Of a stretch of 47,676 bases of DNA, positions 11,077 through 25,917 are shown piece by piece (within the stretch, counting starts at the first letter, position 1; each line of letters starts with the position of its first letter). The stretch comes from a virus. The notes beneath the pieces are model-generated. The model was not told the origin of the DNA. It did not search any database and saw only the letters and a program-made list of their open reading frames with translations. Location: positions 1 to 47,676 of IMG/VR virus record IMGVR_UViG_3300009788_002224; one strand, 5' to 3'. Made by a program: the position numbers and the translations under genes.

Positions 11077-11534
11077 AAAGTATCTCCTCTGAGTAGGGTT
11101 ACATAGTCACTGCATACCCCTACATGTTTCGGGATATTTTCAAAAGAATAACTAAAATTAGTAGCCTCCGGCAAAACCCAGATAGATTTATCAGCCAAGG
11201 GTCGGCCCGGAAAAGTCCAAATATATCCTCTTGATGTAAGAATAAAATTATCTCCTTGGTGCCAAAAACAGTGGATAAGAGGATTAGCTAACATCTTTTC
11301 AAAAGCTGCTAAATTCTTTGCATGGCACCAGATACGGGCATTAATTAGAAACTCCTCATTAATTCGGTACTGGGGGGTCTCATGCCCTAGAAAAATATCT
11401 CCACCTACTACCCAGACATCTACCTCACAATGAAGCCAAGAGTGAGCAGAGAGTCCGCCTATAATATAGTTAGGCTTATTCTCATACTCAGGGCAGGGCC
11501 CTTCCATGTTTCCTCTGTGCGCTATGAAATACAT
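11073..11534 (-). CDS. glycerophosphodiester phosphodiesterase-like protein
   Basis: This 153-residue protein begins MYFIAHRGN, then has CEVDVWVVGGDIFLGHE, matching the HRG and ExD...GHD catalytic signature of GDPD and PI-PLC-like TIM barrels. It is much shorter than bacterial GDPDs (about 250 residues), so it is a minimal version of the kind found in capsule-type sugar clusters. I chose the ATG at 11534 because its A is shared with the TGA of the RuBisCO-like gene (TGATG), a coupled start. An upstream TTG at 11552 would give a longer form. Possible activities are phosphodiester cleavage of glycerol-phosphate or related sugar esters. Confidence 0.72.
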   Translation of the reverse strand: MYFIAHRGNMEGPCPEYENKPNYIIGGLSAHSWLHCEVDVWVVGGDIFLGHETPQYRINEEFLINARIWCHAKNLAAFEKMLANPLIHCFWHQGDNFILTSRGYIWTFPGRPLADKSIWVLPEATNFSYSFENIPKHVGVCSDYVTLLRGDTL

Positions 11535-12718
11535 CAGTCTACTTTGCCCCACTTATCTATTGCATGTTGGTACTCTTCCGAAGGGCACTTATCTATTGCT
11601 TGCCTCATGGCTTTCACTCCAGCAAGCGTTCCTTCAGGATGCCCGTGGATAGCGCCGCCCACATTAGCCATGTAATCTATTCCGAACCTAGTGTTTATTG
11701 CTTCTATTAGTCCCGGATGCATTCCACAACTGAGAGAAGGAACAACATCGTGTTTGTGCAATATTTTCAATGTGTCTTTTAAGTTGTCGTCAGACTCTGT
11801 TGAATACCCACCCCACATGCCCGCATGTATAAAATCCACGCCCATCAGTCCCGCAAGTTCACAAATAACATGCCAAGAGATGTGAAAATCATGTGACTCG
11901 TTAGTTAATATCTTGTCACCGCTCTTTTGAAAGAACAGAAACAGCGGGAGGTCTAACTCTCTAATTGCCTTATAGGCACCTAGCCCGCTCCAAAAGTTGA
12001 CGTGCACAGCATTACCGCCAAGCTCATGAACTCGTTTAACTCTTTCTAAGAGATACGGTGGATCAGAGGTTATACATGCTGCATATATAACTTGTTTTTT
12101 CTGCAAATATTCTACGATAGGGGGAAGACGTTCTTCTAGAGAACAAAAAAGAGGATCAGACATAATTTCATCTTCCTTAATAAAATTTACGCCTCCCTCT
12201 ACCAGTTCTTGAACCATTTCCAATAGCACTTCGGGGGGCATGCCTGTTTTGGGTTTGATTATTCCTCCTAAGATAGGCTTATCATAAACCCCAGTAAAAT
12301 TTCTAACCCCTGTTATACCATAGCGTGGGCCTGCAAACTCGCGTAAAACTTCTTCGGGAAACTCGATGTGTAGCAAGTGACATTTAGTAAAGATATCGAT
12401 ATCTAATTGTCCCCCCATAACCTGAACTAGTAGTTGTGATATACCATCTTCTTTCACATTTATATTCACAACTGGAAAAGCTATTTTTACTTCACCTTTA
12501 TTACCAGCCAGCTCTGATTCAGCATGAAGAATTCTACAAGAATGCCTTTCAAAAAGAGCATCTGTTTCCCATCTATTTCTAATGTTAGGATTGCCAACGC
12601 TCTGACCAATGGCCAAATTCCAAGCGGCGTCCTTTAAAGTTGTGGCTGATTCAATATAGTAGGTGGCTATTATATACTCTTGCTGATTAAGTTCAGCCTG
12701 CTGCAGAAAGAAATCCAT
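11534..12718 (-). CDS. RuBisCO-like protein (form IV-type RLP)
   Basis: This 394-residue protein is a member of the RuBisCO large-subunit superfamily. It has an N-terminal domain with AIGQSVGNPNIR, then the barrel with GGIIKPKTG (Lys155 and Lys157 matching Lys175 and Lys177), NFIKEDE (Lys181, Asp183, Glu184 matching the carbamylated Lys201 and metal ligands Asp203/Glu204), a conserved His in HDFHISWHV (His327 region), SLSCGMHPG (Ser379 region) and GGAIHGHPEG (Gly403/404). The loop-6 region reads AGMWGGYSTES without the catalytic Lys334, and the HRAMHA region reads FFQKSGD, so carboxylase activity is unlikely. Form IV proteins act as enolases, isomerases or decarboxylases on sugar-phosphate-like substrates. 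ATG 12718 has AGGAGA 7 nt upstream. Confidence 0.92.
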   Translation of the reverse strand: MDFFLQQAELNQQEYIIATYYIESATTLKDAAWNLAIGQSVGNPNIRNRWETDALFERHSCRILHAESELAGNKGEVKIAFPVVNINVKEDGISQLLVQVMGGQLDIDIFTKCHLLHIEFPEEVLREFAGPRYGITGVRNFTGVYDKPILGGIIKPKTGMPPEVLLEMVQELVEGGVNFIKEDEIMSDPLFCSLEERLPPIVEYLQKKQVIYAACITSDPPYLLERVKRVHELGGNAVHVNFWSGLGAYKAIRELDLPLFLFFQKSGDKILTNESHDFHISWHVICELAGLMGVDFIHAGMWGGYSTESDDNLKDTLKILHKHDVVPSLSCGMHPGLIEAINTRFGIDYMANVGGAIHGHPEGTLAGVKAMRQAIDKCPSEEYQHAIDKWGKVD

Positions 12719-12729
12719 CAAAACTCTCC

Positions 12730-25280: not shown

Positions 25281-25531
25281 ATTCGCCCCAATTTATGGCT
25301 TCTTCCCATCCATCGCAGTGCAAGATTTACTTCTAACTCGCAGCTTGGGCAGAACAGTTCGTCTGGATAATCCCCAACAGTACTCAAGGGCTGCATCGTA
25401 TGATACGTTAAGTAACACCAAGGACATAGAATATCATGCTTCTCCATTTGTTTAGCCAAATACTCTACAAATTTCTTATCGTCAACCCTCTGACCTTCAG
25501 TATTTATTCCTCTGAAGATTATATCCATCAT
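25277..25531 (-). CDS. small zinc-binding protein
   Basis: This 84-residue protein has CPWC and CPSC motifs (about residues 36-39 and 61-64), typical of a zinc ribbon. It is the first gene after the tmRNA, whose final hairpin (25545-25561) lies just before the AAGGAG SD. Two consecutive ATGs are possible starts. Function unknown. Confidence 0.66.
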   Translation of the reverse strand: MMDIIFRGINTEGQRVDDKKFVEYLAKQMEKHDILCPWCYLTYHTMQPLSTVGDYPDELFCPSCELEVNLALRWMGRSHKLGRI

Positions 25532-25544
25532 TTTAATTCTCCTT

Positions 25545-25865
25545 GCAACCCGTTCTGTTGCCCGGTGGGTCAGTCCGCGCTTTCCTATTGCAGTATTAGT
25601 GCTTAGGCAGCGATTGCAACCTGTTCCACGTCCTTGGAAACGAGTTCCTTAGCGTGTAGGCGAGTTGCGTACTCTACGAGAGAGTTGCCAATTATATATG
25701 TGAGCCTATTTAACATGGCCTGCTCATCCATGGGCTGCGTCCCTATACTTCATCAACACGTCGAATCCAATTCATCCCCAGTTTATCCAATGAACTGCTT
25801 GCTGGAGATGCGGGGGATCGAACCCCGGTCCGCCCTGACTCTATATAGAGCCGGGTTACAGCCAT
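25545..25865 (-). ncRNA. ssrA: circularly permuted (two-piece) transfer-messenger RNA
   Basis: Read on the minus strand, the acceptor half comes first. A P2 strand (GGCTG, 25859-25863) and GGAC lead into a T-arm with stem CGGGG/CCCCG and loop TTCGATC (25811-25827), then acceptor strand CATCTCC and discriminator A (25803). After 23 nt the coding half starts with GGGGATG (25779-25773), which pairs with CATCTCC, then AATTGGATTCGACGTG, the tmRNA D-arm signature. The P2 partner CAGCC is at 25733-25737. A PK1 pseudoknot pairs CATGG with CCATG and TGAGC with GCTCA (25701-25732). Exactly 11 nt later, as in E. coli, is the resume codon GGC (25689-25687) with A at -4. The tag is 28 codons, starting GNSLVEY and ending VEQVAIAA, with stop TAA at 25603. 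CCA is not encoded. Outer limits are approximate. Confidence 0.93.
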
Positions 25866-25917
25866 CTAATACTCATCTTTCTTAATCTGTCTTGTGCTAC
25901 CGTCCCCACACTTGCAT

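Follow-up and report, generated by a model that had tools for sequence, protein, structure and literature searches.

Transfer-messenger RNAs have been found in several groups of phages. Huge phages carry tmRNA together with SmpB (PMC7162821), and tmRNAs are also present in mycobacteriophages and in Bacillus phage G (PMC4131195), while mycobacteriophage DS6A has a tmRNA-like RNA without a tag, for which a role as a decoy has been proposed (PMC4131195, PMC11915505). Permuted tmRNAs are on record as well: the Methylophilales phage Melnitz has one, and 53 unique phage two-piece tmRNAs were detected by ARAGORN (PMC9004378). The tmRNA database, which is the source of the model RF04321, holds 79 unique phage sequences, and the commonest tag length overall is 10 residues (PMC11915505).

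Here we describe a tmRNA gene on the window, by which we mean the whole analysed stretch of 47,676 nucleotides (IMG/VR virus record IMGVR_UViG_3300009788_002224). With the two-piece ssrA of Melnitz and other aquatic phages (PMC9004378) it has in common that a permuted tmRNA resides in an environmental phage, but its tag differs from that of Melnitz and no glutamine riboswitch was found at the window locus. It shares with the RF04321 two-piece tmRNA the order of parts, the T-arm, acceptor stem, helix 2, D-arm signature, PK1, resume signal and tag frame, whereas it deviates from the usual two-piece tmRNA in that CCA is not encoded and that the tag comprises 28 instead of the usual 10 residues. 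The tmRNAs of huge phages, mycobacteriophages and phage G are comparable as virus-borne trans-translation RNAs; unlike in huge phages, SmpB was not seen in the window lineage, which also lacks DNA-level similarity to deposited phages. The kind of gene is thus already known. An earlier reading made from the letters of the window (the sequence-only reading) had overstated its novelty, since permuted tmRNAs of phages have been described before (PMC9004378) and long tags of 26 to 33 residues are common among viral ones.

Identification and layout of the tmRNA gene

The match of the locus to RF04321 (tmRNA_permuted) obtained by cmscan reached 98.5 bits with an E of 4.6e-18 over the whole window, far above the gathering threshold of 47. 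ARAGORN called a permuted tmRNA* at 25512-25892 with the identical 28-residue tag. The permuted layout claimed by the sequence-only reading was recovered by both programs, all of its parts are in their places in the sequence, and its 28-codon tag ending with VAIAA was confirmed by the sequence and by ARAGORN. The layout had to be refined in two respects: CCA is not encoded, and the structure extends past the stop codon to about position 25546. Among the older lineage models, beta_tmRNA (RF01850) alone was reported at the locus; its 64.6 bits remained under the curated cut-off of 84, so that the gene is not a typical betaproteobacterial copy.

In the standard tmRNA (RF00023) the 5' acceptor strand comes first, and the T-arm and the 3' acceptor strand are located at the 3' end. 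At the window locus this order is reversed. The gene is genuinely permuted, as the 5' acceptor strand is preceded by the T-arm and the acceptor 3' strand. The order of parts was inspected directly since RF04321 also fires on standard-form phage tmRNAs (L154-L158), some of them with sub-threshold scores and one (L154) above threshold with 60 bits. We concluded that the feature, judged by its sequence, is a phage-borne circularly permuted two-piece tmRNA. A blastn search of INPHARED with the gene as query did not reveal similar phage DNA at the locus. Two genome-contig patterns, in which a bacterial source had to share the acceptor, spacer and D-arm, gave no exact match, a narrow search and a weak negative.

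The individual parts are compiled in Table 1. The acceptor stem consists of 7 bp (GGGGAUG/CAUCUCC), to which the discriminator A is attached. Between the acceptor 5' strand and the helix-2 partner CAGCC, the D-arm signature reads GGAUUCGAC. PK1 is separated by exactly 11 nt (25690-25700) from the resume codon GGC at 25689, and an A is located at position -4. By analogy to known two-piece tmRNAs, removal of the 23-nt spacer by processing is expected.

Table 1. Positions of the tmRNA parts and of associated genes (window coordinates unless a locus is named)
Feature	Position	Strand	Basis
Whole two-piece tmRNA gene including downstream structure	25546-25863	(-)	
Permuted tmRNA gene core	25603..25863	(-)	RF04321 cmscan, full model 1-213
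Helix 2 5' strand (GGCUG...), modelled start of acceptor piece	25854..25863	(-)	pairs with CAGCC 25733-25737
T-arm CGGGG-UUCGAUC-CCCCG	25811..25827	(-)	Rfam alignment
Acceptor 3' strand CAUCUCC and discriminator A	25803..25810	(-)	sequence, Rfam alignment
Intervening spacer, 23 nt	25780..25802	(-)	sequence, coordinates
Acceptor 5' strand GGGGAUG with G3-U70	25773..25779	(-)	Rfam alignment
D-arm analogue AAUUGGAUUCGAC	25760..25772	(-)	Rfam alignment
Pseudoknot PK1, two 5-bp stems CAUGG/CCAUG and UGAGC/GCUCA	25701..25732	(-)	
Tag reading frame GNSLVEYATRLHAKELVSKDVEQVAIAA*, 28 codons and TAA	25603..25689	(-)	ARAGORN; homologous tags in L003, L053
Stop-codon hairpin (CCUA...UAGG, GCA/UGC)	25584..25607	(-)	covariation with L003
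Candidate second pseudoknot, conserved GCAACAGAA loop	25546..25577	(-)	hand alignment, 3 copies
Clp-type AAA+ unfoldase, 652 residues	19621..21579	(-)	PF07724 162 bits, PF10431 68 bits; phrog_4871 E 3.5e-103
ClpP protease, 201 aa	36157..36762	(-)	PF00574 242 bits; NF001368 274.9 bits, cut-off 249
CCA-adding-type tRNA nucleotidyltransferase of G024	L165 15592-17058	(+)	phrog_2244 E 1.6e-66; PF01743, PF12627, PF13735

Relatives of the gene and conservation of its structure

One relative, a 29.6-kb contig (G001), is nearly the same as the window (99.96% identity across the 12 kb compared). Two others are more diverged: L003, a contig of 6.9 kb in which PhoH shares 84% identity with that of the window, and G024, a contig of 101,763 bases whose RNR is 74% identical and which harbours its tmRNA at 64238-64437 (locus L053). 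G024 has about 25 kb of protein order in common with the window, and the same conserved genes enclose the tmRNA. Three contigs (G023, G025 and G026) contain no tmRNA, which carries no information as the syntenic site appears to be situated outside of them.

The three diverged copies (window, L003 and L053 of G024) were compared over five core helices, namely H2, the T-stem, the acceptor and the stems S1 and S2 of PK1. All 27 pairs form in each copy, and in 12 of them both partners are changed between copies; as the helices were named from the sequence, the pairing rate is partly given by construction, the compensations are not. When the 3' partner was moved by 1 to 4 positions in both directions as a control, 29-38 of 81 cells were paired and not a single compensated pair was obtained. 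The acceptor-stem pairing is kept in the related phages, with compensatory changes in L003 (CGACUCC), where pair 5 is converted from A-U to U-A and pair 6 from U-A to C-G, leaving the pairing intact. H2 covaries in L053 (GGUCG/CGACC), the T-stem in both L003 and L053, and in PK1 of L053 six of the ten pairs are changed on both sides while the loop lengths are the same. The stop-codon hairpin, in which L003 compensates a third-position change in the last Ala codon, and the candidate second pseudoknot, which is clear in L003 and L053 and weakest in the window, covary too, in an alignment less certain than that of the core helices.

Between the window and L003, PK1 and the tag are 90% identical at the nucleotide level, compared with 74-78% in the flanking DNA. 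The cofold energies of single copies were modestly better than those of mononucleotide shuffles (z -1.3 for the window and -2.9 for L003), and for this reason we relied on the comparative evidence. The comparison shows that the predicted tRNA-like fold, PK1 and the tag frame have been kept by selection in this lineage.

Tag, charging and partner proteins

The tag encoded by L003 is GTSLMEYATRLHAEELVSEDVEQVAIAA. Read from the sequence, the G024 tag is homologous and ends with TLTA, its resume codon being uncertain by one codon. The end LTA in place of LAA indicates that the classical Clp degron is not strictly conserved among these phages. ARAGORN predicted tags of 26, 27, 29 and 33 residues for other viral permuted tmRNAs.

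The pair G3-U70 is a recognised identity element of AlaRS. It is invariant in all three copies, so that charging with Ala would be expected. The sequence-only reading had left the charging open, a question that this pair answers in part. CCA is encoded by none of the three copies, in which the discriminator is followed by GCA, CAA and GCA, respectively (A-GCA in the window); some tmRNA genes are known to lack an encoded CCA (PMC11915505). G024 possesses a gene for a CCA-adding-type nucleotidyltransferase (Table 1), whose best NCBIfam match, TIGR02692 (E 1.1e-65), is under the curated cut-off. As this contig also contains ten tRNA genes (L164), tRNAs may be the main substrate of the enzyme. A phage smpB, the search for which had been proposed along with the gene, was not encountered: the window, the 101-kb relative and 25 further viral records with tmRNA, 27 records in total and all of them fragments, yielded no match to SmpB (PF01668). 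The likely partner is therefore the SmpB of the host.

ClpP and a Clp-type unfoldase in the lineage

Genes for a ClpP protease and a Clp-type AAA+ unfoldase lie 10 kb and 4 kb from the tmRNA, respectively. In an alignment with the solved ClpP 8r04, Ser in VSMG, His in MMHM and Asp in ERDK of the window protein occupy the triad positions. We take these residues to be the Ser-His-Asp triad, and by this alignment the catalytic triad is intact. The unfoldase has one D2-type AAA module, which scores best to ClpB, and a GYVG pore loop. Between its TSN and PEFLNR motifs resides TLGFGD, which includes an LGF-type tripeptide. Tripeptides of this type are used by ClpA, ClpC and ClpX for docking to ClpP and are absent from ClpB. 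Neither the LGF tripeptide nor the GYVG pore loop differs in L003 or G024. G024 keeps both ClpP and the AAA+ protein (63.5% and 71.7%); the short L003 contig shows the AAA+ protein only. About 330 N-terminal residues of the AAA+ protein lie outside the AAA module and gave no family match; they are conserved in the lineage and apparently comprise two copies of a related segment.

ClpP and the AAA+ unfoldase are possible functional partners of the tmRNA. A variant compatible with a working tmRNA is that the latter is an ordinary one served only by the SmpB and the Clp proteases of the host, and that ClpP and the AAA+ protein of the phage act elsewhere, for example in head maturation or host takeover. 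We regard the chances of this variant as about even. A total of 709 phage records contain ClpP homologues, for which a connection to tmRNA is not established, and the annotation of many ClpP-like phage proteins is head maturation protease. Moreover, in an independent sample of 44 large viral records ClpP was not in excess among those with tmRNA: it was present in one of the five records with an over-cut-off RF04321 hit, at least one of which (L154) has the standard form, versus 9 of the 39 others. This sample does not support a general association of ClpP with tmRNA in phages. Against the variant stand the scores of the window ClpP, which passes the cut-off of the NCBIfam ClpP subfamily and falls far under that of the ClpP-related head protease model, and the dedicated LGF-bearing unfoldase kept in the same lineage.

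In two phage contigs, G007 (363 kb, locus L058) and G011 (69 kb, locus L059), a ClpP-like gene lies at most about 1.1 kb from a permuted tmRNA, and the neighbours common to both include thymidylate synthase-like and DHFR-like proteins. In G060/G061 (L156/L157) a ClpP-like gene was found within about 1.1 kb of a standard-form tmRNA. We consider these cases of proximity as leads only. In the cultured phages whose ClpP proteins match that of G011 most closely, there was no annotated tmRNA adjoining ClpP.

Other genes

The window encodes a RuBisCO large-chain superfamily protein of 395 aa (11534-12721, minus strand; PF00016, E 5e-34). Its best solved relatives are DK-MTP-1-P enolase and archaeal RuBisCO (E 2.6e-39), and it remained under every NCBIfam cut-off. 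In IMG/VR contigs 171 relatives were confirmed, of which the 80 listed are 53-68% identical; in INPHARED there were none. These proteins constitute a widespread viral RuBisCO-like family, of which no description was found. On another viral contig that also harbours a permuted tmRNA, ARAGORN detected a tRNA-Pyl with the anticodon CTA (L027 4907-4981, plus strand), for which a suppressor-like tRNA is an alternative.

Discussion

Taking the covariance-model match, the covariation and the conserved tag frame together, we infer that the window very probably contains a functional phage-borne two-piece tmRNA. As suggested by the sequence and by comparison, a single precursor would carry the acceptor half, the spacer and the coding half. 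From established tmRNA biology, RNase P and tRNase Z of the host would be expected to cut this precursor at the spacer, whereupon CCA could be added post-transcriptionally by a host enzyme or by a phage-type enzyme as seen in the relative. The acceptor would be charged by AlaRS via G3-U70, and in the infected cell host SmpB would bring the RNA to ribosomes that have stalled on broken mRNA. Translation would then switch to the tag, the stop codon would release the ribosome, and the product would gain the C-terminal degron VAIAA. Less certain is the last step, in which the phage Clp AAA+ protein and ClpP may degrade the tagged protein, besides or instead of ClpXP or ClpAP of the host.

The RNA might alternatively be a tRNA-like decoy, which binds SmpB or AlaRS of the host and thereby damps host trans-translation. 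DS6A offers a precedent (PMC4131195, PMC11915505), and since a phage SmpB was not found, the RNA must compete for that of the host. Unlike the DS6A RNA, however, the window gene has retained PK1 and the resume signal as well as a tag frame that is complete and conserved, and PK1 and the tag are the very part best conserved between the window and L003, which makes a decoy very unlikely. ssrA is often carried off, or used as an integration site, by phages and islands. That the gene is a decaying, non-working remnant of a host ssrA acquired in this way, to which the unencoded CCA and the imperfect PK2 of the window copy could point, is extremely unlikely and largely refuted by covariation, because compensatory changes have accumulated in the acceptor, T-stem, H2 and PK1 of three diverged copies, each with an open homologous tag, because the genomic neighbourhood is identical in every relative covering the site, and because CCA is not always encoded by tmRNA genes (PMC11915505).

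For the working tmRNA, the occurrence of a ClpP-coupled unfoldase, ClpP and tmRNA in one lineage renders a private route of degradation plausible, but unproven. It is rather doubtful that the lineage owns nearly the whole tag-and-degrade pathway, consisting of a tmRNA with a private long tag, ClpP, a docking unfoldase that possibly reads the tag and, in the relative, a CCA-adding enzyme, and depends on the host only for SmpB, AlaRS and processing nucleases. In the open-licence PMC literature, no description of a tmRNA together with phage ClpP and unfoldase was found. If such a pathway existed, the phage could decide which proteins are removed from stalled ribosomes in the course of infection. 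The combination of ClpP, unfoldase and tmRNA offers a concrete test of private ribosome rescue and degradation by means of a tag that possibly escapes host proteases. The comparison of the copies indicates that selection has preserved trans-translation in a phage lineage without a close cultured relative, in which compensatory change keeps the structure while the sequence drifts.
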